A DNA stretch of 64,000 nt from Pezizomycotina sp. ARF18 (taxonomy: Eukaryota; Ascomycota). Below the pieces are notes generated by a model that saw nothing but the letters and a program-made list of their open reading frames with translations, was not told the DNA's origin and made no database searches. The stretch's first letter is position 1. Every line of letters begins with the position of its first letter. The stretch lies in contig AZLU01000131.1 in NCBI GenBank assembly GCA_002224055.1, positions 51,116-115,115 of the forward strand, in the 5' to 3' direction. Below are positions 3,238 to 58,458 of this stretch, piece after piece. The position numbers were made by a program, and so were the translations under genes.

Positions 3238-5926
3238 TCATTTAGATTTCGAGAGCTTCCCTTTGCTTTTCGAGGAAAAGCTTTTACTCTTCTTGGGTTG
3301 CTCGTCTTCTTCGTCACCGTCGTCCAAGAAGCCGTCGTCGTTGTCCTCGTCGTATTCGACCTCGTCGTCGCTCACGACAAAACTTTCATTTTCGCTCTCC
3401 TCGTCGTCACCGTCCGAAGATTCTTCGGCCTCGTCATCGAGGTACCTGCCGACGTCATCCTCGTCATCCCCCTCATCACTAAGCTGGACGTCGTGGTCGC
3501 GCTCCGCATCACTCCCTTCCTCGTCTTCTTCCGCCGAGTCGAGCACGCCGTTGACGCCGTGTACCTCTTCATCTTCCTCGTCGCTCGCGGAGTCCGAACC
3601 TTCGACGTCATCATCCTCGGCGCCCTTCAGCAAAGCAACCTCGTTCTCATCGCTGCTCTCGTCGTCGTCGTTGACGCCTTCGACGTACACCACCGCCTCG
3701 TCGTCGTCGTCGCCGGGTTCGCAGCGCGGCTCATGCTGCGCAGCTTCATCTGGGCCACGAGCATGCGCAGCCTGCCGCGGAGAGCCAGCATTTTGTTGAG
3801 GGACGCGGATCGGCGACCTAGCACCCTTTGGAGGCTAGCTAACCTGCTGATGAGGTCCGGCAGGGTGAGGAGGTGGCCGCCGTGGTACACGAACGTAGTC
3901 TCTACCCATATCATCAGGCTTCCGGCGCGGCCCGGTTTCCTGGATATCAGCTCGGAGAGCTTGGAAATAAGCGTCACGGCCAGCACGGAGTCGAGGCGCG
4001 AGATGGTAGACGTTATTATCGACGGGTTTGTCGTGTGGAAGCAAGTTTCGAGGAGCGCACGGTCTGACGTCTTCAGCGCCTGCGTAAGGACGGTCGTAAG
4101 AGAGTCGCGTTGGGGAACTGAGACTGGTTCGTTGCTCGGAGGGCCTTTGTAGTGTCACCGAGCGATGGGACCGTGATGTGGTGATTGCCGTCCCCGAATT
4201 CGACGATACGATACTGTTGCTCTGGTCCATGCTCGATTCGGTTCCCGTTCTGCCCTCAAGTTGCTGGAATTTTTCGGCGAAGGAAGGCTCTGGAATTCTT
4301 CCTTATCTTCTTCGTCATCCTCTTCCTTCATCTCCCGAGCCGTCAGCACGCGCAATGGCAACGTCGTCCATGGCGAGACCGTCCCCTTCCTGGTTAGCTT
4401 CTTCTTCGGCTAAAAGACCGGCTGCGTCGGTCATCCCTACGTCTTCTGTATCAAGACCATCGACAACGACAGCCGCAGCCTGATCAAGGTTGGATTTACC
4501 GACTTCCTTGACACCGTTCATCGTAGTTCCGGACGTATCTCTGGCGCCGATTCCGAGTGACTTGGCCTGGCTAATCTGAATATCTCCTTGAATACCGACT
4601 ACATCCGAAGTTGCACCCGTCCACTTCACCGTCGCAAAATAGACGTTCGTCCCGTTCTCGACCCACGCGAGGACTACCTCCTCCTTCATGAAGCCTGCGC
4701 TCAGTATCTTCACACTCTCGGAACTAGGCCGCGCGACGGCAATCCGCGCCGCCGACGTCCTCGTAAGTGGCTTCTTCCGCGTCGTATCCTCTTGAGCAAC
4801 CTGCGATACATAGGACCAGGGCTTCTCAAAGATTTCAGCCTTCCTTCCGAATTCACCAGGACAAGGGCAGCCTCCGTTGGATCAATGGCTACACTCTCCA
4901 CATCACTCTGAGCAACGAGTGATCCGACCAATTTGCCAAGCCATATCAGCAACATTGACGAACGGTCGCCCCGCGCTGCAGAAAGGAACGCAGACTTTGG
5001 ACTTTGACATCAGCAGCGAGTGTATCTGCGACGTATGAGACGAGACCGGTGACCGAGATTCCAGCGGGTTTCGAGGTCGACATTGTACGTCGAGTGTGAT
5101 GCGCAGAGGACCGAGGTCGAGGTAGGAAGTATACGTCTCGGGGTCCCATAGTTCTTCGGTAGAGTTATAGATCTATGGAGTAATTTCACTGGATTAGCTG
5201 TAGGCACAATAAGAGTCGGTCAAGAGCCAGTAATAATTCCACGATGGCGATTTATCTTAGATCAAACGTGGAAGCAGGTTTGTAGAGATTTGAAGGGATT
5301 AAATGCGCTGCCAATAGAATATCATACCGAATCTTGATTCCTCGCTTCAGTCCCATTCTACCAGGGATCGTCTCCACAGCTCCATCCCCTCGCCTTCTTG
5401 CTCGCCTCCACGAACTGGAATCAAAGACGTTGCCCCTGTGCTCGCCTTCCAGCGTTTTCACAATCGAGCCCTGCGAAGGCGAATATATGAATACCTTCCC
5501 AGCATTTCGTCGCAAGCGCAACGACAGTACCCAAAACATCTCCCTCGTCTGCTCATCGCCGCCATCCTCGTCCTCGTCCTCATCGTAGTCCCTTCCGTTA
5601 CGTTTCCGTTGGTCTTGGACTCTCTTCTCCTCTTCCTCCTTTTCTTTTTTTCTTGTCGGAATCTGTTAGCGTTCCCAAGCGAGCGAGTGGATCTCGATGT
5701 TCTTTTCGAAAACATGCTCGCAACCAACGCGATGTTGTCACATCGTGGATCCGAAGCCTTTGACCGTCAGGCCGCGTATGGCAGAAGCAAAACAGGCCGG
5801 TCCGCAGGTGCTGCGGCGAGAATGCAGCTGCAAGCAGCGGCGATGGGCTCGAGGATCCAGCGACCCGAGTTTCGCTGCAAGGTGCGGCGAAGCTTTCAGT
5901 TTCTGCTTTTTCGACTTGCTGACCAT
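3238..5926 (-). CDS. UTP5: UTP5 / WDR43-like subunit of the small-subunit processome (t-UTP subcomplex)
   Basis: UTP5-type proteins act in the nucleolus in early pre-rRNA transcription and 18S rRNA processing. They combine an N-terminal WD40 propeller, a Utp12 domain and a charged tail. Here the N-terminus (MVSKSKKQKLK, 5926 leftward) is followed by RLRIHD and by a blade-like segment (FIYSPSQGSIVKTLEGEH, near 5480). The Utp12 domain lies at about 3640-3985 (LSELISRKPGRAGSLMIWVE, then LASLQRVLGRRSASLNKM). The last 150 codons are a long Asp/Glu-rich tail ending in a Ser/Lys-rich terminus. The reading frame changes several times inside conserved segments, for example between the start and RLRIHD. 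I read these as sequence errors, though some may be introns. Assignment to UTP5 rather than another Utp12-domain WD protein rests on size and tail composition. Confidence 0.75.
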
Positions 5927-11321: not shown

Positions 11322-14008
11322 ATGACTGATCCAGAGGTTCCGTCGGAGGCGCCTGCCCCGGAGGTCAAACAGCGGATACGGTAGCGTCTCCAACCAAAGC
11401 AGAAGAAGCTAGTGAAACGAAGGTAAAGCAGAGGAACAGGCCAACCCGTCTGAACCACTATCGGCGCCCAGCAAAGAGGAAGAAACCAGAGAAGAAAAAC
11501 GGCAGAGGACTCGTCTACCAAGGAGGATGCTTTCAGATGTAATAAAGGACGAACCCAAAGCTGAGGCGCTGGTTGCCGCACCAGTTTCTCAGACAAAAAC
11601 TGAGTCGCCAGCGCAACCAGCGGCTGCGCCCGCCAATGTGGACTCGGAGGATGACCGATGCGCCTGCTGTTTCACCACCTTCATCGGGCTTCCAGTCCGG
11701 ACCCCCTCTGCGCTGGCAGGTAAGACCCGCGGGCGTGATGATTCCGGCACAGAGAGCGATGAGCCCCATGAAGAGGGCAAAGACGGAAGACGACGAAGAA
11801 ATGGAAAACGCCCCTCCCGCTCCGGTGAAAACCGAGGCACCCGCTCAGCGGAACCCATGAACACTGATACCACGCCTGCTACTGGGGAGGCTGCACCAGC
11901 ACCACTACCACAGCCCAAGGCACCGGGGACGCCCGCCCATGCAGAAAGCACCATGCAGAAGTTTTGTCTCTCTATGGTCCGTAACATGAAGCGTCTGAAA
12001 GATGCCGCGCCATTCGTCTTACCTGTCGACCATGTCAAGCTCAACATTCCTCACTACTACGATATCATTAAAGAACCCATGGATCTGCGACGATCGAGAA
12101 GAAGCTTGTCCAGAACGCCTATCCGAGCACGGAGGAGTTTATAGCAGCTTCAAGCTCATCATAGCGAACACTGTCAAGTTCAATGGCGAGGAGCACGCCG
12201 TCACCCTGATGGGTCGGACCTGGAGGCCCACTTTGAGAGGAACCTGAAATCGATGCCCGCCATTGACCAGGTGACTCCACCATCTAAGAGCAAGAAGAAA
12301 GGAGGGTCTGCCCCAAAGCGCCCGGCAGCTGCCCCCGCGCCTGCTTCGGCTCCTGCCACTGCTCCCGCCACTGCCGCCGATCCAGTTCCAGTCCCATGCA
12401 TACCGCTGCTCCAGCACCTGTCCAGCGCGAACCTAGCCCCAAAACGAAGCCTAAAGTCAGCACCCCTCCGCCGCCTCCCCCGAAAGTTAACACCAAGGTA
12501 CGGCGCGAGTCCAGGTCTACGGCGAAGTCGCCCACGGCGGCCTCTCCTACGTTTTCGCTTCAGCCATCCGGAATGCTCTCATTCGTCGGGATAGTACCGC
12601 GACGACTGACGGTAGACCAAAGCGACCTATTCACCCTCCACCGTCAAGGGACCTTCCTTATTCAGACATGAAGCCGAGACGCAAGAAGGCCGTTGCTGAG
12701 CTCAAGTTCTGCGACACGGTACTAAAGGAACTGCTGAAGAAACAGCACGAGGCTTACGCTTTCCCTTTCTACAACAGTTGACCCTGTCGCGCTGAACATC
12801 CCGGATACTTTAAGATAGTACGGAAACCTATGGATCCTCAGCTCAATTCAAACCAAGCTCAAGGGCAACGAATACGATGGGACTGCCGATTTGAGGCTGA
12901 CATCCGCCTCATGTCACCAATTGCTACAAATTTAATCCTGCCGATTCTCCGTTCATCAATGGGAAAGAAACTGGAGGCGTCTTTGATTCGAAGTGGAAGG
13001 AGAAACCTAATTTCAAGGAGCAGCATTCAGAGTCGGTATCTCCTCAGCCAGAAGAGGCAGAGGAGACGAAATGAGCGAGATGAGTCGCATGAAGACATTG
13101 TTGCACTGCAGCAGCAACTCGAGATGATGAAGGATCGTCTTGATAGGATCAAAGAAGGGCAAAAAGGCTTCGCCTCCCGCGCAACCCAGCAAAAGCAGCC
13201 ACAAGAAAGAAGGGCAGCGTTTCCAGTGCCCCTCCCCCGCTCCGCCTAAGAAAGCGGCACCAGCTAAGGAAGCCGCGGCTCCTGCAAAGAAAAAGTCCAG
13301 CTCGAAGAAGAAATCAGACGACGTTCCTTATATTACATTCGAACAGAAGCAAGAAATCAGTGAAAGATCAACTCGTTGCCTCCTAATAAGATGGCGAACG
13401 CTCTTAAGATGATCCAGGAAGGAATGCCAGTCTTAAAGGGGTAAGTTTCAAAAGGAAAACTCAGCGCCATTCAAATTGTGTTTATGTCTGTCTATATTTG
13501 CATCTATTTACTTGGTTACTAAACGCTATGCCTTTTTTTTAGGATCTTCAACAGGAGAGATCGAACTTGATATTGATGAACTCAGTAACGATGTACTCTA
13601 TCGTCTGTACAAGTATGTTTCGAAACATACAGGCTCATCGAAGGCTGCAGCTCCTGCTGCGCCCGCTCAACCAGCGGCATCTTCCGGGTCAAAGTCTAAG
13701 CCACCGGGCGCGGCAAGGCCAAAGAAAAACAAGCCGATGAGCGCTTTGGAGCAAGAGAAAAAGATCAAAGAAATCCAAAACCGCCTTGAAGGGTACGAAC
13801 GCGACAATTCTGGGGGCGCGAAGCCACAATCGCTGTCGTCGATGACCCAAGCCAAGGAAGTAAGGACATATCCTGAAACCCAAAAATAAATAAATCTGTC
13901 TTGCGAGCTTATTTTCTTTTACTAACAAATTCGTCTTGTTTTTTTAGATGCAGAAATGAGTTCAAGCGATGATGAATCCTCTAGCGGTCTGAGAGCGAAG
14001 AGGAATGA
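11322..14008 (+). CDS. BDF1: BDF1-like BET protein: two bromodomains plus an ET domain
   Basis: BET-type factors bind acetylated histone H4 tails and recruit transcription machinery. An Ala/Pro/Glu-rich leader ([15 protein letters not shown]) precedes bromodomain 1 at about 11955-12250 ([20 protein letters not shown], then [10 protein letters not shown]). Bromodomain 2 lies at about 12690-13020 ([20 protein letters not shown], then [11 protein letters not shown]). A basic Lys/Ser linker follows. The ET domain ([14 protein letters not shown] joined to [10 protein letters not shown]) is split by an intron at 13441-13542. A Lys/Glu-rich stretch ([17 protein letters not shown]) follows, then a second intron (13860-13947) and an acidic Ser tail with stop at 14006-14008. 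Bromodomain 1 alone needs three one-base corrections, near 12087, 12147 and 12217, each a missing base, so the break pattern looks like sequencing error. The exact 5' end is unresolved. Confidence 0.9.
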
Positions 14009-23681: not shown

Positions 23682-24752
23682 ATGGCCGACAGATACTCGT
23701 TCTCCCTCACAACATTCTCACCTAGGTACGTTGCAGCTGCTCTCCGATACCTGGGAAGCTCTAAAGTAACTCCAGCCGATGCTAATGACTAGAATCTGGT
23801 GGTCATAGCGGAAAGCTGGTGCAGATTGGTACTAGAGCTTGCCTCTAGCTCCAAGCCGTTCACGCCAACCCCTCTTCTAACACTTTTGATTCGTATCTCC
23901 GCAGAATAGCTCTCACGCTGTCAACCAAGGAGTTACCTCCCTAGGAATCAAAGGTAAGTCTACAAAGCCGCTTGGAAAGCTAGTATAAACCGTTTATCAG
24001 CATTGCGGAGACCTTCCCATAGCTAACCTCAGCTCCAATCTTTACCCTCCGAATAGCTACAAACGGTGTTGTCCTTGCAACGGAAAAGAAGTCCTCATCG
24101 CCCCTTATCACCCCACAGTCCCTCGAAAAGATCTCTCTCATCACCCCCAACATCGGCATGGTCTACTCCGGAATGGGGCCGGATTTTCGCGTCCTGTCGA
24201 TAAAGCACGCAAGGTCTCGCACACCGCTTACAAGCGCATCTACAACGAGTACCCGCCGACCAGGATCCTGGTGCAAGAAGTAGCCAAGGTGGTCCAGGAG
24301 GCGCAGAGCGGTGGTGTCCGACCGTACGGTGTGAGCATCCTCGTTGCGGGCTGGACGAGCACACGGGACACGCCAAGCCTATACCAGGTCGACCCCAGCG
24401 GGAGCTACTTCCCCTGGAGGCTACGGCTATCGGAAGAGCGCGACTAGCCGCGAAGAACGTTCCTGGAGAAGCGGTACGCGGAAGGGTTGGAGCTGGAGAT
24501 GCTATACACGTAGCCCTACTGACGCTAAAGGAAACTATCGAAGGGGAGATGAACGGGGATACGGTTGAGATTGGTGCGTACATTTATTCCTAAAATATTA
24601 CGGCTACTGCTTGTATTGACTTTGGCGTTTCATAGCATCGTTGGCCTCCAGCAGATCATCTTCTCGGCTACGAAGGTGTTGAAGGCAAACGTGGACCGAG
24701 ATTCAGAAAGTTAACTCCACAAGAGATTGAGGATTATCTGACGAATTTATAA
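23682..24752 (+). CDS. PRE8: 20S proteasome subunit alpha-2 (PRE8/PSMA2)
   Basis: A structural subunit of the outer ring of the 20S proteasome. Exon 1 (23682-23725) encodes [14 protein letters not shown]. Intron 1 ends at 23808. Exon 2 is only about 20 bases and reads GKLVQI; a second intron ends at 23905. Exon 3 encodes [12 protein letters not shown], and a third intron ends near 24057. The main exon then reads [66 protein letters not shown] and [10 protein letters not shown]. The last exon begins with IVG and ends with [17 protein letters not shown] and a stop at 24750-24752. Several bases are missing against the family, for example in exon 3 and after the IVG, so frames shift. The assignment is firm from sequence order and the alpha-subunit N-terminal [10 protein letters not shown] signature. 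Confidence 0.95.
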
Positions 24753-26338: not shown

Positions 26339-28725
26339 ATGACTTCCCGTCCGAGAAGGGAATCCCAAGTCAACTTTGACGTTGGGACATTCACCTTCGA
26401 CCGAAGCAACAGGAGGGGGACGAACAACACGACGGGCACTATCGATTCGGTAGTCGCTGAACGGAGGGTCAATAAGATGCTGAATGACCCTTTAGCTCGA
26501 TTCCACACGCCAGAAGAAGCCGCCGATGAAGCGGAAACCCTCACAAAGAATTCGGCAACGACAGCATCGATGCTGATTTGGTCAGGAATCTCAGGAAGGG
26601 AGCCATGGTAGCCAAGGCGCAAAGCTTGGGTGACCTGAGCCTGATCGAGGAACACCTTGATGCTGAGGATCACAATGTTCTAGCAAAGAAGAAAATAATC
26701 GCTGGAACCAACCGTTTTCTCTTATTTTATTGGCTGTTTCATGTTCGTTGAGCGCAGGCGTCCAAGGAATGGGTAAGTAATATCATCCTCATTCATCTTT
26801 AGTTGTAAACAAGATCAATTCTACCATGCATCGTTCTGTTATCAGATGAAACCGTTATAAACGGAGCTCAAATTTTCTACAAGGAGGCCTTGGCCTTACC
26901 GCCAACGATACCAAAACCCAGTGGCTCTTGGGTTTGGTAAACAGTGCGCCATATCTCTGCTGCGCTCTAATCGGTTGCTGGCTTACGAGTAAGTTGGTCG
27001 AAGACCCGCCCTGGCTATTCTTTCTTCGTAATCTCTGAGCTAGTTTTACTAAAAAGAAATCCGTTGTCTATAGAGCCTTTGAACAGATGGTTAGGTCGCA
27101 AAGGCACAATTTTTGTAACGTGCCTTATTTCGTCCGTTACCTGCATCTGGCAAGCATTTGTCAATTCGTGGCCGCACCTCTTTGCGGCAAGATTTATCCT
27201 CGGGATCGGTATTGGAGCAAAATCGAGCACCGTGCCCATCTATGCCGCTGAGTGCGCACCACGAACATCCGCGGCGCTTTCGTTATGCTCTGGCAGCTCT
27301 GGACGGCCTTCGGTATTTTTCTAGGCTTCGTGTGCGATGTTGGATTCTACTATGTGTCTAGCCCGAAGGTATGTTATACAGTTATACATTTGTGAAGCTT
27401 TCCCGCCGTTGAAATGTAGTGTGCAGTATCTACGCCTCTTCTATTCTTTTGTTTACAGATCAAAGGTCTCAACTGGAGACTGATGTTAGCATCTCCGTCC
27501 GTCCTGCCAATCCTCGTCTGCTTCCTGATCTGGTGGTCACCAGAATCTCCGAGGTATTTGATTCGCACAATAAGCTTGAGAAGGCTTACAAGTCGTTGCG
27601 AAAGCTTCGTACGTCGGAGCTTCAAGCAAGCCGCGACTTTTTCATCATGCCATGTCCATCAGGACAGAGCAGAACGTAGAAGTCAGGAGGAAGTCCTTCT
27701 TCAGGCTGTTTACCGTCCGCCGTAACCGGACAGCCCTGATTGCGAGTGAAATCCTCATGTTTATGCAGCAGGTAAGTCTTATAACAACATTTAGCCCTCT
27801 TCCAAGCTGATGTTCTTTTCTTCCTGTAGTTCTGTGGTATCAACGTCATCGCCTACTACTCCTCAGAAATTTTCCTCAAGGAGGATTCGGCGAGCGCGAT
27901 GCTCTGTTGGCGAGCATGGGTTTCGGCGCTCTCAACTTTGTGGGAGCTTTTCCGCGCTCTATACAATCGACAAGTCGGCCGCCGGCCCCTGCTTGTCACG
28001 TTCCCGATCATGGCCGCGTGCCTTTTCTCAGTGGGAGCGTTTTTCCACCTCCCCGAGGGCTCTCTTAAGCTCGGCTCCTCGGCGGCGCCATCTACCTTTT
28101 CGCCGCTGCCTACTCGCCTGGTCCCGGACCGGTTCCGTTCACGTACTCCGCCGAGGCATACCCCTGCACATCCGAGAGATCGGCATGTCGCTCGCTACGG
28201 CTACGACCTGGCTGTTCAACTTCATCCTCGCGATAACCTGGCCGGCCATGCAACACATTGTCACCCCAACTGGAGCGTTCGCTTCTACGGCCTGGAACAT
28301 AATCGGCTGTTTGCGACCTTGCTGTGCGTGCCCGAGACCAAAGGAAGTCATTAGAGGAGCTAGACGACGTCTTCAACAGGGGCACGAAGAAGAACGCGAG
28401 GTACGGGTGGTACCAGTTCAAGAGCTTCGTGCCGAAGTACGTTCTCGGGATGAAGGTCGCGGAAATGGATCCGGACACGGGGAGACTCTTGGACGATTCC
28501 GACTCGGAGGCGACGATAGCGGTAAGAGATTCGATTTCCGTGTCTTCTGGCGCTGCTAAGGAAGATAACCAGAATGAAAAGGCCACGCAGGAGAGAACTA
28601 CTACTGGTAATAACACAGCTCCTGAGCGTAATGCTGGAGATGTGAATACTTCAACTTCACCTGAGGATACTGCGAATCCAGATCCTACGACCGAGAAAGA
28701 ACCTACCAACACTTCTTCAATCTAG
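26339..28725 (+). CDS. MFS sugar/polyol transporter (myo-inositol-transporter-like)
   Basis: A 12-helix plasma-membrane transporter of the sugar porter family. A long polar N-terminus with TTGTIDSVVAERRVNKML comes before helix 1. Family signatures in order: GVQGMDETVINGAQIFYKEA (spanning an intron that ends near 26845), NRWLGRKG after helix 2, RFILGIGIGAKSSTVPIYAA (helix 4), WWSPESPRYL at the end of helix 6, QQFCGINVIAYYSSEIFL (helix 7), and PETKG after helix 12. A hydrophilic tail of about 120 residues follows, rich in Ser, Thr, Glu and Asn, and ends NTSSI. At least four introns are visible, with donors near 26773, 26990, 27370 and 27771. Frame breaks interrupt several helices. The substrate cannot be read from sequence; the family also includes glucose, quinate and lactose transporters. 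Confidence 0.85.
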
Positions 28726-39097: not shown

Positions 39098-40579
39098 GGT
39101 TTCTTTCTTTTTGGAGAGAGATTGTTTGTTGAAGTTTCGTTATCGTTGTATAGCAAATATTGTTATAAAAATACTTGATATTTTATTTTATTTTTTTTAT
39201 TTTTTTATTTTTTCGCAATAATTGAATTGAAATTTAGTTGGATGAAATGTATGCTAATGAGTAGATTCTGAATGGCTCCCAGAAACCCGTGTCTCTTAAA
39301 TGCTTTTTTTTATATAGAGCAGTTACCTCTGAAGGCAAATCACAAAATCAGGATTAAAGAAAGACACCAATTAAGTACGCCTTAATTACTCACTATACTA
39401 CGCGGAATATAGATATATTAGTCAAGGCACATGATAAGCCAGACTCCCATCTTAAGATCGGGATTCTGAGCGGAGAGCAGCCCAGAAATCAATCAAAAAG
39501 TACTCCTAGGATAGTAGTATATTACCAGTAGTATTAATGGCAAATCTGGGCTTCGAATAGGTGTATCTACAATCCACATGTCTTAATTCTTCTTCGATTC
39601 TTCTTCGATTCTTCATTTAGTCGTTTTTGGCGTCCCTGTAGTGCTATACCATTGCTCACTGCGTCCGAACAAGGAAACACTGAACATTCTCTCTCTGCAT
39701 CCCAGATTAGAGCGTTGATAATGACTCGGATGGAAAAAACAAACGAGAATCTCGATTTCCATCCCTAAAGAAAAAAAAAGAAAAAAAAAAAAAAAGGTAT
39801 AATTCGATATCGGCTAGTCGATTTAATACTATACCAGAAGATATTCCGGATATCCATTTCCTTCTATACTTCAAGTCTTCACAGGCTAGGCTAAGTAGCT
39901 TTTTCTTGTGCAGCCGCCCGCTACCCAGAGGTTTTCTCTTTTTGAGCCTCATCCGGCGTTACCTCGCCGACGCGCTGAAACCGACAGCGAAATAAATAGA
40001 AAATTTTTTTTATTATTTTTATTTTATTTTATTTTTATTTTTATTTTATTTTTATTTTTATTTTTTAATTTATTTACTGGGCACTCAACTATTTTCTCTA
40101 AACCCAAAGTAAGAAGGATACTTACACACGACAACGACGCCTGCTGCCTCTTTTTTTCGGTTTCTTTTATCATTGTCAACCCTACTGCTACTCGTTTTGA
40201 CCTCTTATACGGTGAAAATACGAAAAAATTCTTAGTTTTACTCCAAGACAGAGGGACAACAAAAGAAAAGGCAGAGCTTCCACGCAAAACGAAGTAAACG
40301 ATCATGGCAGCAATAATGTAGGTCCTCCTCCACATTAGCTTTCAGTATCTTTTCTCCGACGCCTATATTATCACAGCTGCGGTATTGTGTATCAGCTATA
40401 TTCGACAGTTACGAGGAAGAAGTGTAAAAAAGGCAGAGTGGTTTTGGCGCGCAACAATGCAGACTTCTCAGCTCCAGTGGATCGTTCATCACTTCCATCA
40501 TCTACCGCCCAGAATTTCCAGAATTGGTCTACTGTTCTCCACTGACTTCTTCATCCGACCTTTACTTAAGGGGTACTAG
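39098..40579. other. intergenic region between divergent genes
   Basis: Contains TTTTA repeats (39180-39215 and 40010-40065), a directly repeated TTCTTCGATTC (about 39590-39612) and poly-A tracts (39768-39795). The first exon of MOB1 is probably within 40300-40560 but I could not fix it. Otherwise nothing is seen. Confidence 0.45.
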
Positions 40580-41508
40580 AGTGGTCGGACGTTCAAGCCG
40601 AAATCGAAGGCCGGAAATACTAGCTTCCACTTGCGACAGTACGCGCAGGCAACTCTTGGGGATGGCAGCTTAAAGCAGGTGGTCAAGCTACCCGAAGGCG
40701 AGGTATGCGTTAAATCTTTGAACGGAGTTTATAGAGTACCTCCGCTCACAATTTGTCTTTTTTTTGATGCATGGGTAGGATTTGAACGAATGGCTAGCAG
40801 TTAATGGTACGAAAATTTGTGTTTGGTGGCAAACCTCACCTACTCCCGAATACGCAGCGATCTTTTCGTCAATTGCTAATGCTAATCCTTCTAGTTGTCG
40901 ATTTCTACAACCAAATTAATTTACTAGTAGGTGTATTATGTGAGAACCCGACGAGGAAACCGAAGCTAACTCTCTGTGTCTTTCCTTGAAGTATGGATCT
41001 ATCACCGAATTCTGCTCTCCAACCACCTGTCCCGAGATGAAAGCTACGGACGAGTTTGAGTACCTCTGGCAGGACAACGAGAAGTACAAGAAGCCCACGA
41101 AAATGTCAGCGCCGGATTATATCGAACATCTGATGACGTGGGTGCAGAGCAGCATCGATAATGATCAGATCTTCCCTTCTCGTATCGGTAAGATTGTCTT
41201 TGCTTCGGATGTTGACCAGCGAACGGGTTTGCTGCAGCTGTGATACTAACATCCATGCGATCAGGTGCTCCTTTCCCGAAAACATTCCCGCCTCTCGTCA
41301 GGCAATTCTTCAAGCGCCTATACAGGGTCTACGCACATATATACTGCCACCACTACCCGTCATCGGAGCACTTAGCTTGGACCAGCACTTAAATACGTCG
41401 TTCAAGCACTTTGTCCTGTTCGTCAAGGAGTTCGACCTTGCACAGGGGAAAGACTTCTGGGGACCCCTTGCTGAATTGGTGGAGAGTATGACAAAAGAGG
41501 ATTCGTGA
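40580..41508 (+). CDS. MOB1: MOB1 kinase activator (first exon not resolved)
   Basis: Mob1 binds and activates NDR/LATS-type kinases (Dbf2, Sid2) in the mitotic exit or septation network. Exons seen: about 40580-40702 ([20 protein letters not shown], then KLPEGE), 40781-40806 (DLNEWLAVN), 40895-40926 ([10 protein letters not shown]), 40992-41187 ([40 protein letters not shown], then [18 protein letters not shown]) and 41265-41508 ([49 protein letters not shown], ending VESMTKEDS). The zinc ligands of the family are visible: the two Cys in CSPTTC and the His in HIYCHH. Donors are GTATGC, GTACGA, GTAGGT and GTAAGA. The last exon has a local frame break after the HHYP. The initiating ATG lies in an upstream exon I could not identify. 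Confidence 0.93.
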
Positions 41509-42393: not shown

Positions 42394-43156
42394 TCAACCT
42401 TTTCCAAGGTTTTCTATCATCCCCATTACGAGCGGTAAGGACCTTTCTTCGAGCACCTCCTTCTCACGCCCGGAAAGCTTCGTCAGCACGTAGTTCGAAA
42501 CATCCCTTGGGTCCCTGCTCTCCGGCCGCCCGATCCCCAACCCGATCCTGACAAAATCCTTCGTCGACAGCGAATCCGCTACGGACGAGAGGCCGTTGTG
42601 CCCACCCGTCGATCCGGATTTCTTCAGCTTCACCTGCCCCAGCGACTTTTCCAGCTCGTCGTGCAGCACGACCAGCAACGGACACCGCCGCTCTTACCTT
42701 TATCTTCGGCTACCGGCGTCGGTGTCGGTGCGCTCTTTTGAAATTCGTTCCATGCTTTTTAACGGCTTTACCGGACACGTTCATCATGCTAGGCGACTGG
42801 AAGAGCGTTACTTTGTACGAATCCGAATAGGGTCCCTGGGCGACCATGCCGCCGTACTGTGCGTCCCTGTAGAATGATCCGGAGGCGAGGAGTTGGAGGA
42901 TGTAGTGGCCGACGGAGTGGCGGGTGCTCAGTAGGGAACCGGGGTTGCCGATACTGCAGATTAGGATGCGGCGCGGTATCCGCATCGCTGCCGTCGCCGC
43001 GGAGTTTGGTAAAGGCATTTGGTAGATGTTTAGAGCGGACTGCGAAGAGGAGGAAGGCTCCGGTTGGACAGTGGAATTGTCGCCGAAGTTCTCCTCTGCC
43101 GCGAGCAATTCGGCCTTTTCCTTCCTGCGAAGGCGCTTATTAGCTTTGACAGCCAT
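42394..43156 (-). CDS. PTH1: peptidyl-tRNA hydrolase (Pth1 type)
   Basis: Pth1 cleaves the ester bond of peptidyl-tRNAs released from stalled ribosomes; in fungi this type is often mitochondrial. A lysine-rich start (MAVKANKRLRRKEKAELLAA) and a Ser-rich linker come before the catalytic domain, which begins ILICSIGNPGSLLSTRHSVG (about 42890-42960). The expected active-site residues are visible: Asn in GNPG, His in TRHSVG, Asn in SPSMMNVSG and Asp in LHDEL. The second half reads LEKSLGQVKLKKSGSTGGHN, DSLSTKDFVRIGLGIGRPES and DVSNYVLTKLSGREKEVLEE, with stop at 42394. One frame break lies near 42680-42720, between the MNVSG block and LHDEL. Length about 250 residues, longer than bacterial Pth because of the N-terminal extension. 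Confidence 0.93.
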
Positions 43157-43982
43157 TGCGGTATAAATGTTTAGGTATATTTCTATTTTGAATTGTGGAC
43201 TGTATGAGAGGAATATATAAATTAAACAGAATGATAGGGAGAAGAAAAATTATACAACAATTGCTGCTGGGAAGCTGTATACCAAAACAGAAAGGCGATC
43301 AAAAGCAGATACAAAGCAGAACTTATATATAGCAGCACTTACCTGAGCTATATAGGAATAGAACCTGCTAAAGACGTCAGAGAGAGTTGGCTATGTTTTG
43401 ATTTATAAAAAGAATCACCGTTGAGTCAGTGAGAAAGGTTGAAACCAATTGGTGAATTTCAAACCCAAAAGGCAGGAACGAACAAAGGAAGGAAAAAAAA
43501 GAAAAAAAAAAAAAGAAAAAAGAAAAAAAAGAAAAAAAATTTGTTTTTTCCCTGGTAAGCACTGCACTACAGGGCTTTAAAGATACTAAGTAAGGAGCGG
43601 GGACAGAAAAAAAAAAAAGCAATAAACAACAACAGATTTTAGTGACTCGAACTCGCGAATAAGCGCACTTAAACTCCGCCGCCGTCGAAGGCTTGGCCAT
43701 TTACCACTTGTTCTCTTTTTACTTCTTTCCTTCCCTCCTCCTCCTATTCTACCTTCTTTCCGCTCCTCAGTGGCTTATTCTCACAATCATTCGATTTTCC
43801 TTTTCGGCGTTCTTACCCCTTCGCCTTTCACACCGATGCAGCTGATGTTGAGCTAGGGCTGTTGCAAGAGTGCCCTCCTTTAGTGCCCTCCTTTACCTTT
43901 CAGATTGTGCCGGCTTCTCATTCCTTTACGCCGAACCGAGTCTGAACCGAGTCCTACTTTTCGACGTAGTTACCAACTCACT
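43157..43982. promoter_or_regulatory. shared upstream region of PTH1 and the SNF2-type ATPase
   Basis: The two genes are divergent and share this 0.8-kb spacer. It contains a long A-rich tract (43494-43540), C/T-rich sequence (43720-43800) and a directly repeated TTTAGTGCCCTCC-like 13-mer at about 43869-43894. No TATA box stands out. Confidence 0.4.
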
Positions 43983-46900
43983 ATGGCCGCCACACTTGAG
44001 CCCGAGCGTCCTGTCGATGCCAAACCTTTCGGCGAACTGTCGTTGCATACCCCAGAGCCGTCTTTACCAACCTTCGCAGGCGAATTGGATCTGACAAAAT
44101 TCCTTGGTATTGGGACACTCGATGGCTCGAGTGGCGGATTTTCGGAGGATTGCGCCTTTACCACACGACGAACAGCCTCCGACGGCTGGCTAGAATTCGC
44201 AATACCTCCATTCGACTTGACTCGAGACCTTGGCAGGAAGCTACAGCTCCTCCATTTGAAAGACCTGATAAAGCTAACATTCTCTGTGGACAATGGAAAG
44301 TTAAGCGCCAGGCTCTACGTTCTCCCTAGCGACAACGGGTTTCCAGCGAGGCAATTGAGCGTGCTCAATGCTGTCCTCGCCCAGGTCGATACGTCAAAGG
44401 AAGCATGGGATGCCAAACCAACAAATATCCGAACTAACTTCGATGCGAAAGTGTCTAATATCTGCAGGTCCTCGTTGTTCGCCATGTTCAACAGTCTACC
44501 GTCGCCGAACCCGAAGTGGGTCACGGGCACCATCCACGACGATGTTTTACAGAACATACGCACAGGATATATTGCGGGCTTGAAAACTAAACCTTTCAAT
44601 TACCAGCGCAGGTCCGCTGCGCTCATGCTCGAGCGAGAAATTGACCCGGAAAGGTTCTTGGATCCTTATCTGGAGCAGAAGTTTCGCCTGGAGGTCGCAA
44701 TTACTACGTCTTGTCGGCATTCTCCAAATCCCCCTCCAAGATCATCCTCCAGGATCCCCTGTACGTCGAGGATGTTAGGGGCGGCATCTTGGCCGAGGAA
44801 ATGGGTACTGGCAAAACACTCACCTGCTTGATGTTGATACTGGCTACAAAGCACTATGCTGCGGAAATGCCACCAGAAAAGGCCGAAAGGGACACGTCTG
44901 GCGTTGTGCTGTCTTTGATGGACATTTGTGCTAAGGTTATCCTTACAAAATCTGTGCCATGGACTAACGAGGCCCTCGAAGTCCCGGCCCCTTTACAAAA
45001 CCACATCCTCTCTGCGCGGGAACGATTGAGGGCGGATATTTACTCAGCCAAAGTCTCAAAAGTTTCAAAGCGGGCAAACATTGAAGGGGGGAAATCGGTA
45101 CGGATACGCCTTGCCAAGGGCTCTATTGTGGTAGTGCCACCGAACCTCATCAACCAGTGGGAAGGCGAAATTGAGAAGCATTGCGAGGCGGGCGCTTTGA
45201 GATATGTAAAATTGATGGACAATATTCCATTCCATCGGTGAACGAGCTGCTTGATCTCGAGCTTGTCCTTATTACCGCGCACGTTTTGATAAAGAGGTGC
45301 AGGAAGATACGGACCAACGCGGTCGTAAAAAACCTACAGGGGTTCAAGTCGTCTGCAATTGTCCTTATTTACGTGCGACGCGGATTCCTGACTGTACTTG
45401 TCCGAAGGAAAGCGATTACTATGAATCCCCACTACTAAAAGTGCACTGGAAGCGCATAATCGTGGACGAAGGCCACTCTATGACTTCTACGAAGACTAAT
45501 TCTATGGAGGTAGCCCAGAAACTGCATGTCCAGAGCAGGTGGGCTGTTAGCGGAACACCGACGAGCGGCTTTTTCACGGCTCCGAAGGGCGTCGATCTTG
45601 ATAAGGAGGAGAACAGCATTCTCAAGGATTTTGCTACAGCAGAAGAATCTGACCTGAAAAAAATTGGCACTATCCTTCGACACTTTCTCAAGTCAAGCAT
45701 TTTCGTCCGACATGAGGCGGAACTTCTGAATCGCGACTGGCCTACATCATTGACAAATTTGAATAGGCACGTCATCTGGAACTTCTTGCAGAGAACCATT
45801 GTGCGACATCAAATTAGCGATGTCGAGGAGGAGGTGAAACTGCCGCCGATGAATCACAAAGTGGTTTCTCTAGCTCCGGGTTATCTCGAAAGAATTACGT
45901 TGAACCTTTTCTTGGCTCTGTTTACGACAAACGCGGTCACTTCTGAAAGAGAGGACCAGGATTACATGTTCCATCCTAGCCAAAGGTCCAGCTTAACACA
46001 TTCGTTTCGAATCTGAAGACAGCTACGATCTATTGGACAGCGTTCGACGACATCGGGAAGACGCTAGAGATTGCGCGAAAGTACCTCGATGGTGCACTTG
46101 CGGGGATTAAGAAATGCCATGCGAGTGACATCTCGTTGCTTCAGCGAGCGATAAGTGCAGGCGAAGAGGCGTTAGCGTCCAGTTTCTGGAATGCGATTTC
46201 GACTTCGCATGACATGGGCTATTTTATTTCCGATTTACCGGACGCAGTTGCTGATGCGTGGTCCATCGGCGGACCCATTCTTCAGAAGTCGACGGCCCCA
46301 TACGCGGTGCTCGGAAGCGCGCAAACAATACAGATGCAAAAGTTCCTTAGCAGCTACGCTTTTGCTCTCGATCCAGAGTCGTGCACTAGAGCTCTAAAGT
46401 CAGAAGGGGAAAGGGTCTTAGAAATTTCTCGCAAACGGGAGGACCGCAAATCAAGTACTAATCCATCTGGAATGTCGACCAAAGAGAGCAATGCCACTTC
46501 TCCACAGAAAAAGATAAAGGGACCATCTCAGAAGAAAGCACATGCTCAGCGGAAAACTCAGCATCTTTCCCGGCGAAAGGGACCCAAAAAGGTATCCTCA
46601 AGGAGACAAAAACTTCTTTTACAATTGACCTCTTGCACAGAGACTCGCCCCTCAGACACACGGCGATCATGGGAACGGCATCAGTAAAACTCTCTTATCT
46701 TCTCGACAGAATTATCACCTTATCGCCAGAGGAGAAAATCATAGTCTTCTTCGAGAGTGAAGAATTGCTTATTATCTGGCCGAGTCGCTTGATATTCTTG
46801 CGATACCATATCTGCTTTACGCGAAGTCTCTGGATCTCCATCGAAAGTCCGAATATTTGGTCACTTTCAACACTAACCCCCATTCAGGGTTTTCCTAATG

Positions 46901-51388: not shown

Positions 51389-51419
<31 letters not shown>

Positions 51420-51671: not shown

Positions 51672-54600
51672 ATGCCGAGCAGCGCTGAGCCGTGGGACGA
51701 GAGCGGGGAGCGATCTCCCTCCCAGCGATAATGCCGTCTCCAAGCTCGAGTCAGCGGAGGGCGTTGTGGTGAGGACAAGAGGATATCAGGCGGAAATGCT
51801 TGAAGCGAGCTTGAAGCAGAATATTATTGTCACTGTACGTTCTATCTGAAACCAGGACTTCACAGGTTGACTACGGTAGGGGTTAGAATGAGCTAACTAA
51901 CCTATCGGGTAATATAGATGGACACCGGTAGCGGTAAGACGCACATGTAAGCACTCTCGTCCGCTTTCATTCGCTGGCTAAACTCACTGATTATTATAAG
52001 CGCAATAATTCGTATTATTGCCGAGCTGGAGCGAAGTCCACACACGGTATAGCCTGACTATTGCTTTCTGATGTATCTAGCTTGTATACTGGGTTTCAAG
52101 CACATCATGGTGTCACTAATTAGGAACAATGTGATATCCTCTAGATTCCTGGTTCTTGACGCCTACGGTCTGGCTTCTTCGACAACAAACGGAAGTTCTG
52201 AAGAAGCACCTCCCGTGCGCCGTTGTTTCGCTCTCCGGGAAGAAGTTGTTGAGAAATGGTCGACGGAGGTCTGGAAAGCTGTCTTGGATCAAGTTGCGGG
52301 AGGAGTCGTGCTGAGTACGCATCAGTACTTTGGGACGCACTCGCGCACGGTTCGTCAAACTTGGAAAGATCCCCATGGATGGCGAGAAGAACCTGATCAG
52401 CCTTCTAATCTTCGACGAAGGTGAGGGAACTAAAGATGTGGCTCTTTCAAGTTACAGAAAGAATTTTGTTCGCTTCTTTTATATAGCTGCATATACAGTG
52501 TGCTGACATGATATATACAGCGCATCATTGTATGCACAACCATCCAGCAAGGCGAATAATGGATGACTTCTACTTTCGTGCGAAGCTGGCCGATCCATCT
52601 GGTGAAAGCTGCCTTCAATATTAGGTCTCACAGCTTCACCAATTGTTCGAGCTAGGCCAGATGATTTACAGTGAGTTCCTTTCTCTGCACTGCAAGTTAC
52701 CTATAGAGCGGTGTGCTTTGTCTCTGGTTCAAGGATTGAGGAATATAAAAGGCTGAACTGCTCAAGGGCGATTGAACGGAATCTTGACGCTATAGCAAAG
52801 ACACCGAGCGTACATAAAGAGGAACTGCTTCGTTTCGTACACCTCCGACGCTTAGGCTAGTGTTTTATAACCCTACTAGCGTGTTCGATAGCGCATTATC
52901 CTCTCCACGACCTCAAAGTCCTCCAGCTGTGCCTATACACACTCGCACTATCAGTCTCCAGTTACCCTCCTCGCCTCCCCTCCAGTCTTCAAGTCGACCT
53001 AGCGACCCACTACATTCTCGTAGCAATAGCTTTCAATTACAACACTCGATGCCATCCCAATCCTCCGCAACGTCGTCGCAGCGTGGAGCAGTATCGAACC
53101 TGCCTGCCTCGCTCGCGAAGAAGGGCTCATTCTCGGAGAGCTTCGGAGCTTCAGGTTATGTAGAGTTGTCAATCGACGACATCATGTCTGGAGGAGACTT
53201 TACTGTTGTGCCAAATCCGCGACAGCCAACACCTCCCATTTCGCCGCCATTGTCTCGCAGACCAAGCTCGCAGTCGAGCTCCTCTCCCAGCGCCGTTAAC
53301 TAAGTCACCTCAGACTCGTCCTCGACAACCGAGCGTAGCGTCAAGAATCGGTAAAAGAACAGTAACCTCCGACAAGTTTAGCCTTCCAAGCAAAAATAGC
53401 TATATAGAGTTATCCATAGAGGACATTATGGCGACAAGGAATGAGAAGCCAATAAAAGAGACAGTTTCGAGCGTCGATACCTCCAGTGCCTTAGCGCCAC
53501 TGATCCGGCTCCTAGCGAAGCGGAGCTTTCGGTTGAGAACATCTTCCTGGGAAGTTACAGCTTACCATCTCAGCTTGAGGATACCGAATCTCAACACATG
53601 GATCTGGACAACCCAATGCAAGGTCGCAGTATAGCGCTGGAGTCTCTTGAGAGAGCATGGAGGGCGATGGAAATTCAGGAAGACCCATACGTGATCAACC
53701 TACGGTCCGAAGATCCTGAAGGTACCGGACACTGTATGGAGGAAGAACACCTATTCGCAAAGCAGTGGCTAGCTTCTATCGTCGGGCGTGTTATGTGTTT
53801 GCAGAATTTGGGGCTTGGTGTGCGGAAATGTTCGTGTCGCAGTGTATAGATTTATTCCTCGACTCTTCTCCAACCTCGGAGGCCAAATTCCGAGAAGGAC
53901 TTCAGAGCGAAGAGTTTCGTGGAGTCCTTTGGGAGATTGTACGGCGGGGGTACTACTACTAAAAGTCGAGCAATGACCTCTGATGAGCTAACAAGAGCCG
54001 AGACACGTTATAGGAAGGTCTTGAGAACCGTTGAAACCTCTGACCCCAGACCTCAAGACCTGGAGCTACCGGGAGCACTAGCGCCAAAGCTCGAATTGCT
54101 GATATCTACTTTGATCGACGAACACCAAAGCGAAAAGTTTCCAAGCGACTTTCAGGCTTGTCTTCGTCGACCAAAGAGCTGGAGTAGCGGTTTATCCAGA
54201 GTTCTCTGTGCACCGAAAGACAGCTCACCTCTTTAACATCGGTACACTTCTCGGAGGATCATCCATGCAAAAGAAAAGCCAATCGAACGGCATGATCTCC
54301 GAACTTCTTAGCCCTGCAAATGAGCTGAGTGCTCTCGCAGAGTTTCGCCAGGGACAAATAACCTACTCATCTCGACGTCGGTTGGAGAAGAGGGCATAGA
54401 TATACAGGCATGCGCTGTCGTGGTTTGCTATAATCTACCGCAAAATCTAAAATCCTTTATTCAGAGGAGAGGGCGAGCGAGAAGGGCAGGCAGCAGGTGT
54501 ATATTAATGTGCATTCGCGGGGAGGAAAGCAAGGTTGGAAAGCTCCAGGACCTTGAGAAGGACATGAAAGCAGCTTACGAAGATGACATGCGCCACCTAT

Positions 54601-57441
54601 TTGGCTCTGCTGCTCCTGGCGAATTAGAGAATTTGGCACTGGATGAAGAAAGCAACCAAAAACGAGTGTTTTCTGCGTCGAAGTGAGTCTTATGATGCGA
54701 GAATAGTTTTGAATATGTTTCCTTGTCTAGCTCCGGGTTGAATTTGCTAACTGAGAACACATTTAGGGGCCTCCTTACAATGGACTCTGCAGTTCCGCAT
54801 CTACACCACTTCTGCGCTGTTCTACCACAGATTAGCTATGTTGACACGCGGCCCGTATTCGAAACTTTAAGACCGACTGGGAATAAGGTGTATCGTGACG
54901 CTCCCCAACTGCCTACCTCCTGAACTTAGACGGGCGGAAAGCGAATGTGCATGGAATAGTAAAAGAAGAGCACAACAAGATGCGGCCTTCACCGCCTATA
55001 TCCAGCTATACGATGCGGGTCTGATCGATGAGCACATGCTACCGTTGGCACAAGATGACGATGAAGAGACGAAATTGGCGAAAAGTGGTATTGAAAAGCG
55101 GCCTTCCAAAATCGGTGTTATCCAAGTTTAGATCCGTGGAGGTATGCACCAGGTTGGCAGGAAAATGATGGCGCCTGGTGCTCCACAATCAATATCGGCA
55201 GTTCCGTAGTTGATATGCTGACTCCTTTCCCATTCCCGAGCACATACCAACCTTCCAATTGCATAAAACAGCCTTCGAACGTATTGATGTTAGCATCTCG
55301 TCATGCTTCTGGAAGAACGCTGGAGATATCTTCAAGGATTATGGTAGCTGGGAAAGAGCACGGCAGTACACGCGATCGATATTTTGGAGTGTACACCAAA
55401 CAAGGATGACAAAGCAAAAACTGGATTTGTTTATTGCTTCATTCCACGGGGATGCACGCCGCATGTCACAGTCTAGACCTTGAAAATGAACCAGCAGCGC
55501 CCGCGAAGTTAACGAATTTTGAGAATTTGAACACTAGTGGCATCGTTGTGGACCTGAAGAGCAACCAAAAGTTTCTTGTCGTTGGCGATGGATGGTTCCC
55601 GAAGCAAGCATCAATGAAGACATACAGAATTATATCAGAGGGCAAACTAAATACCAGGGCAAGACTGTCTCTTTTGAGGGGCCTGTTATCGAGGCACGAC
55701 CTTTCCCCAAGAGACTAGATTACCTTCACCGAGATTCTGCCCCGAAAATCCTGCATCAAAGAAGGTGGAGTACCTGCTTGCCGAGTACTGCGTTGCGGAT
55801 AAAGTTCCTGTCAAGTTACCCTGAATGCGCTTTATCTACCTTGTGTGATCAGAAAATCCGGATCGGCTTGATAGCCGAGACTTTGCGGACCGAGCTGCTC
55901 TCGCCTTGCGGACTAACAGAAAGATCACTGCCGATGATTTGTACGGCGATCAGCAGCTCCGCGGCTCGAGAGGACGACAACTATCAGCGCCTTGAGTTTC
56001 TAGGCGACTCTGTACTGAAGTATTGCACCGCAGTACAGGTGATGGCCGAATACCCATCGTGGCACGAAGGTTTACTTAGCGGTAAAAAGGATCACATTGT
56101 CACGAACTCCACACTCGCAAGAGCCGCAGTATCGAAGAACCTAGCGCAGTGGATTATCACAAGGCCCTTTGCAGGCTCCAAGTGGCGACCAAGTTATATT
56201 TCTGACTCGGACGGTGACAACAATGTTGAAATCGATAAGGTTATTTCGATGGACGATGATGCCGGCGCCATGCAGGAAGCTACCGAAGACAAACCCGCAG
56301 ATGGGAGCAGGGTTTATCGACGAAGATACTGGCAGACGTAGTTGAATCGCTGATAGGGCCTGCTACATGATCGGGTCGTTTGAGATGTCCCTCAAGTGTA
56401 TAGGCGTGTTCGGACTGGAATAAAATTGAAACCCCTCGATGAGCGAATGATGGAATCTATAATACCTACCAGGACCAGGAATGGATGAAAACTTCGAGCG
56501 CAGTCTTTGATAAAGTTGAGGAAATGCTCGGTTACCACTTCAAGAAAGGCATTGCTTGTGGAAGCATTGACACACCCTTCCTACCAGCCTTTCACGACGA
56601 CGACAGAAGCATGAGTTACCAGAGGCTTGAATTTCTAGGAGATGCGGTGCTCGACATGATCGTGGTTGACGAATTGTACAAGAGAGGACACGAGTACAAT
56701 CCGAGCGGTGAAAGCTATTCGCACATCGACATGCATCTGTATAAGTCGGCTGTAGTCAACATGGACTTTCTGGCTTTCTTATGCATGGGCTTTTCTATTA
56801 CAGAACCAATATTAAAGGTTGTGCGACCGCGCCCAGATGAATTTGCTGTGTGCGAAGGAGGCAAGACTCAGTTCCCGTTGTGGAAGTTTGTAAGGAAGAA
56901 CTCGCCAAAATTAAACAAATCCATCGAATTTACCGTCCAAAAGTACGAGCAACTTAAGGCCAGGATCGAGAGCTCATTCGGACAATGTGAACTTGGCAGT
57001 GGTACCAAACATCATGGTACAAATAGCTCCGAGGAAAAGGCATATCCTTGGGTGGAACTAGCAGCGTTGGAAGCAGACAAACATCTAAGTGACATCATGG
57101 AAAGCTTGATCGGAGCCGTATTCATTGATTCCGGCGGGAGTGTGGAGGTCACAAAGGCGATCATCGAGACTATGGGCATACTCAATGTTCTCAGGCGTTT
57201 ACTGAGAAATGGGTCGATCCCGCGCATCCAGTCAAGAAGCTTGGAGAGCTTGCCGGTAAAGACCTCAAAACAGTTCGCTACGAGAAGAAGGAGGAAGTTG
57301 TGGATGAGGCGACCGGCCGTCGAGAGTACGAGTGCAAAGTTCTTATTGACGAGTTCGTCGTCGAAACCGCTCGTGGCGGGTCTTCCTGGAAAGAGGCGCG
57401 GGCAAGGGCGGCACAGGACGCATTCAAGGCCTTGAGTCTTT
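51672..57441 (+). CDS. DCL2: Dicer-like ribonuclease III (DCL2-type)
   Basis: Dicers cut long double-stranded RNA to small interfering RNA; the DCL2 type is the main fungal antiviral and transposon-silencing Dicer. Order: RGYQAEMLEASLKQNIIVT, intron, P-loop MDTGSGKTH (51918), intron, helicase motif II with LLIFDEAHHC split by an intron (52425-52520), LTASPIV motif III, then an unusual Ser/Pro-rich insert (about 52880-53640). The C-terminal helicase half has FIQRRGRARRAGSRC (motif VI, about 54460). The dimerisation domain covers about 54760-55100. RNase IIIa: YQRLEFLGDSVLKYC (55983) and ADVVESLIG (56330). RNase IIIb: YQRLEFLGDAVLDM (56619) and LSDIMESLIGAVFIDSGG (57090). Both RNase III acidic sets are present. 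A dsRBD-like tail begins near 57215 and ends at 57441. At least ten frame changes, several introns. The start is one candidate. Confidence 0.92.
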
Positions 57442-57667
57442 AGCTTTCGTTCGTTAATTTTTTAATGATTGCTCAGATATATAGCCCTTTACACGGGAGA
57501 GTATGATCGAGACTACACATGTAATTATAACTACTAACTAATTATTTTCTGGTTTAGCTCTTTACAACTAGTTCGCGTTGATATAATCGAGTACTTGTTA
57601 CAAATTCATTCCTTACAAGATACAAAGCTTTGATTGATTGATAAGAGCGTGCTAAACACGCTTATCC

Positions 57668-57707
<40 letters not shown>

Positions 57708-58458
57708 AACTAATTTTCCTAGACACGCACAGTTCGAATTTCGAAACCAGGTATTCGCGTCTACCTCCCTTTTTTTTTTTAATATAACGAAGCCATTTCT
57801 ACTTACAAGCCATTTCTTACTCACCCATCTTATATATATATATATATACCCGTTAAAATATATAGTTTTAACTTATAAAAAAAAATAGAAATAAGTTATT
57901 AGTAATACTTAAATTATTATTTAAACTATTTAATTGGTAAATAATTAAAATAATTAAATAATAACTTGAATAATAAATATATAAACAAAATAGATTTATA
58001 TTTTAATGAAAAATTATTAAATAATATAATATATTAGATTATTGGAAAAATAATAAAAAATATATAATATAAATATAATAGCTTGTAATTATTTATCTAT
58101 ACCTACAACGAGCGCAGCCGTCGAGTCGCAATTTCAATTACAAGTAATATATATACAAAACAACGAAATTTGTTGAAAAGTGAGACGTTTTGTCAACTAA
58201 TAATAATGTTAAAAAATTGGGGGGTAGATCCTAAGTATGAGCCTCAAAAACCACGCTAAATACCCTGTTCGAAACCCACCTATCAGTTGTAACAATCATC
58301 CAACGCTTGCAAAGCTCCTACCTGTTTTTTTTTTTTTTTTTTTTTTTTTTTTCCGGCTTGCAATCACTTCCTTTTGCCAGCACTTGCCCACAAAATCCAT
58401 ATTTCTGCGAGAAGTCAAGGTAGCCAAGAGCACAAGGCAAGCAGGAGAGTAAGAAGCC
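57442..58458. other. very AT-rich intergenic region
   Basis: Between DCL2 and RRP42. 57830-58100 is almost pure A/T. It contains a short hairpin plus a 42-base T/A palindrome (57646-57709) and a T26 tract (58326-58352). No gene is seen; the last 100 bases are the RRP42 upstream flank. Confidence 0.55.
57646..57709. repeat. hairpin followed by a T20A22 palindromic tract
   Basis: AGCGTG-CTAAA-CACGCT (57646-57662) is a perfect 6-bp stem. Six bases on, a run of 20 T (57668-57687) is followed directly by 22 A (57688-57709), a perfect A/T palindrome of 40 bases. It lies downstream of DCL2. The stem followed by a T run superficially resembles a bacterial intrinsic terminator or an RNA polymerase III stop, but no pol III gene is seen upstream. 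Confidence 0.6.

Follow-up and report, generated by a model that had tools for sequence, protein, structure and literature searches.

A Dicer-like gene with an insert at the helicase junction

The window, i.e. the whole stretch of 64,000 nucleotides that was analysed, covers positions 51116-115115 of contig C131 in a genome assembly of 46.36 Mb and 408 contigs. A Dicer-like gene lies on its forward strand and was read by translating the three frames across 51.65-57.46 kb and by running Pfam on ten open pieces. The gene and its parts are the following, in window coordinates:

51672-57443, forward strand: Dicer-like gene (three-frame translation and Pfam matches in pieces), spread over many frames in the assembly, with a putative start at 51672
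52732-52857, forward strand: end of the presumed first helicase half (RIEEYK...EELLRFVHLRR), in frame 1, followed by LRLVFYNP in frame 0 (frame translation)
52875-53642, forward strand: Ser/Pro-rich insert, split over three frame pieces that add up to about 255 codons (frame translation, composition)
53157-53186, forward strand: motif copy 1, YVELSIDDIM, frame 0 (translation; core found again by a genome pattern search)
53401-53430, forward strand: motif copy 2, YIELSIEDIM, frame 1 (translation; core found again by a genome pattern search)
53517-53546, forward strand: motif copy 3, EAELSVENIF, frame 0, with no aromatic residue ahead of the core (translation; genome pattern search)
53643-53719, forward strand: conserved helicase sequence resumes, SLERAWRAMEIQEDPYVINL (frame translation), a probable first helix of the Hel2i insertion domain
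54345-54491, forward strand: Helicase_C (PF00271), the C-terminal helicase domain (E 4.4e-14, covering positions 62-110 of the 110-position profile)
54789-54893 and 54880-55056, forward strand: Dicer_dimer, two abutting pieces in different frames (Pfam)
55985-56227, forward strand: first Ribonuclease_3 domain (Pfam)
56620-57135, forward strand: second RNase III domain, Ribonuclease_3 (PF00636; E 1.3e-15)
57228-57434, forward strand: dsrm (Pfam)

With its Helicase_C, Dicer_dimer and two RNase III domains, this gene is a Dicer. The sequence matches of its RNase IIIb piece in the PDB are chains named Dicer, the best being 2eb1_A ('Endoribonuclease Dicer', E 2.8e-10). The same piece gave 13 pattern matches in bacterial or archaeal contigs and 3 in viral contigs when relatives were sought, none of which was confirmed. 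DCL2 is the antiviral Dicer of ascomycetes, and the C131 gene is presumably a DCL2 by its sequence. Its domains follow the same order as in fungal DCL2 (Helicase_C, Dicer_dimer, two RNase III domains and a C-terminal dsRNA-binding motif), but about 255 residues are added after the first helicase half, ahead of the conserved block that follows. To our knowledge, the control and the protein contacts of fungal DCL2 are poorly understood.

The added sequence was foreseen by the original prediction as an insert of about 250 Ser/Pro/Gln-rich residues and is present in that place: counted up to SLERAW, its roughly 255 codons comprise 22.7% Ser, 11.8% Pro and 5.5% Gln. It is read in three pieces with approximate edges (52875-53300 in frame 0, 53302-53487 in frame 1 and 53490-53642 in frame 0). 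Judged from this composition only, the insert would be disordered. Its first piece, searched against its own genome, matched itself and one other sequence at E 0.80, and nothing else. A phmmer search of the PDB with the end piece of the first helicase half gave no match.

Dicer_dimer matches occur at two loci of the genome, the C131 gene and a second Dicer gene on C188 (49500-58500, L028), presumably DCL1-like. The latter has no insert at the corresponding junction, where LPHEEALLYPKLELPRATDLIKKL continues almost uninterrupted, with a few residues at most (alignment by eye); a PDB phmmer search with this junction piece returned no match. The claim that the junction is usually short is supported, by eye, by the one other Dicer found in this genome; for DCL2 proteins in general, a short junction is presumed.

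Frame breaks and the coding status of the insert

As assembled, the insert is not one open frame. The motif copies 1, 2 and 3 are found in frames 0, 1 and 0, their start-to-start distances of 244 and 116 nt both being indivisible by 3. Copy 1 is separated from copy 2 by a frame 0 stop at 53301-53303. A further frame change, near 52852, falls within the peptide VHLRRLRLVFYNP. Since the copies sit in frames 0, 1 and 0, the single continuous Dicer protein described originally is a stitch across frames, which had been left unstated.

The breaks were quantified as the least number of frame switches that avoids stops, with HSP70 genes of the same assembly as a yardstick. Per kb, the Dicer gene takes 3.61 switches in 52742-54682 (7 in all) and 3.74 in 54765-57440 (10 in all), versus 3.37 and 2.81 in the HSP70 genes on C49 (53036-54818) and C70 (64385-65993), a comparison that comprises these two HSP70 genes only. 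An HSP70 profile search of the genome gave 38 matches on seven contigs, and the joins between matching pieces were inspected on three of them. The C49 gene is split into seven pieces with 6 frame changes in 1.78 kb; the excess over the profile length is only -8 to +2 nt at all 6 joins, which leaves no space for introns. On C70 the excess is at most 10 nt at 6 of the 7 joins, the remaining one being intron-sized. On C303 this holds for 3 of the 8 joins, and five are intron-sized (two of these in frame).

Numerous frame breaks along an entire gene are what a decaying pseudogene would display, in which case the motifs would be relics. This reading was dropped as scarcely credible: the HSP70 genes are broken at a similar rate, so that the two Dicer stretches show no excess of breaks over these two essential genes, the C49 joins are small indels, and the second Dicer is likewise scattered across three frames (by eye). 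Single-base assembly indels are the simplest and most likely cause of the breaks, because HSP70 genes of this assembly are similarly broken. Frame breaks in the present assembly call for assembly error as a first explanation, not for dead genes, and stitched translations need checking.

The frame changes within the insert could also signal that it consists, in whole or in part, of one or several introns or is otherwise spliced out. Codon-usage scores do not support coding in the insert, the used frame scoring below 0 in all windows except 53440-53560 in frame 0 (0.8) and the unused frame 2 reaching 2.1 in 53200-53320. The score was derived from 16 pieces of HSP70 and DEAD-helicase genes (4 containing internal stops were dropped), a training set that differs from Ser/Pro-rich sequence, against which the score is biased. 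Nevertheless, only 2 frame switches are necessary to cross 52858-53643 on the forward strand (8 on the reverse strand), whereas dinucleotide shuffles of the insert need 6.47 on average and manage with 2 or fewer in 13 of 2000 cases. Four pieces of the Dicer core, picked around known open stretches, took 3, 1, 0 and 1 switches, and six other stretches took 12, 5, 12, 8, 8 and 4. The last value belongs to 40500-41300, for which 14 of 500 shuffles are as low and which may be coding.

Splice signals also argue against an intron. The donor-like GT[AG]NG, a stricter six-letter donor and the motif CT[AG]AC are all absent from 52860-53643, where the looser CTGAT occurs once, at 53500. In contrast, among the six putative introns of the Dicer gene (placed by eye), GT[AG]NG is found in five, the stricter donor in three and CT[AG]AC in four. 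In addition, an ascomycete intron of about 770 bp would be very long. Because two switches suffice where shuffles need about 6.5, and because no donor-like site is present, the insert is probably exonic and, we infer, translated as one piece; its removal by splicing appears very unlikely.

The repeated motif and its candidate roles

The three motif copies announced in the original prediction are encoded at the positions given there, and their end-to-start gaps of 214 and 86 nt, or about 71 and 29 codons, agree with the predicted spacing of about 70 and 30 codons. The motif recurs in the insert above chance. The best pair of 8-mers in the 255 residues scores 35, a value reached in 5 of 1000 residue shuffles (mean 25.6), and comparison of copy 3 with copies 1 and 2 gives 24.5, which was reached in 6 of 50,000 shuffles (mean 10.5). 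When a three-copy profile was run over the six frames of the window, the copies were the top three of 91,930 8-mers (32.3, 31.7 and 29.0); as they had built the profile, only the gap to the fourth (20.3) is informative.

The DNA pattern for exact ELSI[DE]DIM with TCN serine has two matches in 46.36 Mb, both in the insert, and the broader E[LF]S[IV][DE][DN]I with TCN serine has six, three of them inside a span of 381 bp in the insert; the backwards control of each pattern gave 0. With AGY serine, the broader pattern has no match in the genome. The three matches elsewhere fall in open stretches of 119 (L030), 17 (L031) and 34 codons (L035). L030, with the longest of these open stretches outside the Dicer, reads EFSIDDI (G000:C19:259735-259755).

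The copies had been described as conserved at the protein level. Six of the 30 nt differ between copies 1 and 2, the changes at codon positions 1, 2 and 3 numbering 1, 0 and 5 (ten codons); copies 1 and 3, and likewise copies 2 and 3, differ by 4, 0 and 5 (eight codons). Random placement of the changes retained as many equal residues in 473 of 20,000 trials for pair 1-2 and, over the core of pair 2-3, in 288 of 20,000, which suggests conservation as protein for these two pairs. The same does not extend to pair 1-3, for which 2394 of 20,000 placements retained as many residues and conservation is not significant.

A weakly constrained low-complexity sequence, expanded by slippage and duplication, would account for the Ser/Pro/Gln-rich composition and for the lack of significant protein-level constraint in pair 1-3, the motifs being long-standing internal duplicates that serve no function today. 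Disordered loops in fungal proteins do often expand. On the other hand, codon position 3 accounts for five of the six nucleotide differences between copies 1 and 2, which speaks against this reading. Expansion of this kind is unlikely on balance, if still to be taken seriously.

The explanation that we prefer, and which may hold although we would put it somewhat below an even chance, is that the insert is a translated disordered linker of a fungal DCL2 whose three-copy motif provides docking sites for a partner. Its position at the helicase hinge, its composition and its repetition fit a flexible docking loop. The insert would link the first helicase half to the Hel2i domain, and the short amphipathic motif ELS[IV][DE][DN]I[MF], present three times, would dock in a groove or propeller of the partner. 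Three copies on one flexible loop would raise avidity, and the loop would hold the partner next to the helicase while leaving the nuclease undisturbed. What is observed is the layout of the gene, a motif recurrence above chance and the openness of the insert; disorder and the binding of a partner are inferred. The docking role proposed originally is partly supported, in that a Ser/Pro-rich, probably exonic insert with a repeated motif, and hence possible docking, fits most tests that were run. The partners named at the time fare poorly.

The partner could also be DCL2 itself. In an intramolecular latch, the motifs would regulate the protein in cis by binding its helicase or Hel2i surface. The insert presumably sits at the Hel1/Hel2i hinge, and three equal motifs could swap on one site. 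However, the best look-alikes of the motif in the second Dicer, weak as they are, HLTIEEIV at 5529 (18.3) and QLSVEQIS at 6790 (20.0), are both away from the junction. We regard a latch as distinctly less probable than a loop that docks a separate partner.

Among the named partners, Atg8 and the export machinery were considered from the motif itself. The bare Atg8 core [WFY]xx[LIV] is matched by YVEL and YIEL, so that copies 1 and 2 resemble a LIR/AIM by their Tyr-x-x-Leu, but copy 3 reads EAEL and has no such core. No acidic residue is present in the three residues ahead of the core in the matching copies. The core is moreover common by chance, at 1.66 per shuffle, and a third one in the insert (FTVV) is outside the motif copies. 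The proposed Atg8-interacting fit is therefore not upheld. Neither is the nuclear-export-signal spacing: the pattern of L/I/V/M/F residues separated by x2-3, x2-3 and x has no match in the three insert pieces, forward or reverse, versus 1.85 forward and 1.62 reverse in shuffles. Atg8-binding or nuclear-export signals are a highly improbable identity for these motifs.

A WD40 protein is the first candidate instead, with low confidence, because the spacing L-x-I-x-x-I-M equals that of EH1. EH1 (engrailed homology 1) peptides are bound by the WD40 domains of Groucho/TLE and have the spacing F-x-I-x-x-I-L. The insert motif shares with them its spacing (L-S-I-x-x-I-M) and its short, acidic nature, but all three copies have Leu in place of the defining Phe/Tyr/His. 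Accordingly, the strict EH1 pattern,.[FYH].[IVM]xx[ILM][ILMV], has no match in the three insert pieces. A relaxed version, in which Leu is allowed first and Phe last, finds exactly the three copies at 0.08 per shuffle, with the proviso that it was written after the copies had been seen. A contact of yeast alpha2 on the WD repeats of Tup1 is named in the title of a reference within PMC2882346. Searched with Tup_N, the genome gave no match, and the 14 controls of this search were equally silent.

It is conceivable, if very doubtful, that the three-site docking loop brings a WD40-type protein, be it a Tup1-like corepressor or some other propeller, to the helicase of the antiviral Dicer. In that case, dsRNA sensing and a regulatory partner would be directly coupled. 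We know of no fungal Dicer described as coupling dsRNA sensing to a partner through a docking loop. In the literature on fungal Dicer inserts, Tup1/EH1 contacts and Cryphonectria DCL2, the titles and abstract openings of the matches listed mention no such insert. Whatever the partner, a short motif repeated in a loop at the helicase hinge offers a tangible handle of peptide size for finding it.

Neighbouring genes and Argonaute loci

The window has 56 open stretches of at least 130 codons. Twenty of those outside the Dicer gene were run on Pfam and 8 of the 20 matched, mostly as partial domains. The neighbours identified by Pfam pieces are the following:

3630-4154: Utp12
11416-13886: bromodomain and BET
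23989-24444: proteasome subunit
27830-28351: sugar transporter
42713-43249: peptidyl-tRNA hydrolase
44645-46013: SNF2-related

The partial matches of the neighbouring genes fit frame breaks, and introns could equally cause them. This applies to the bromodomain/BET and proteasome subunit genes, both found in fragments.

Elsewhere in the genome, Piwi-domain (Argonaute) matches above the curated cut-off are located at C6:53736-54674, C216:37663-38494 and C193:16483-16852, and a further one at C95:98688-98954 is below this cut-off. Within the window, the Dicer gene is bordered by long runs of A and T at 51389-51416 and 57668-57709 (the latter T then A), and an AT-rich stretch follows past the gene at about 57.84-58.10 kb.
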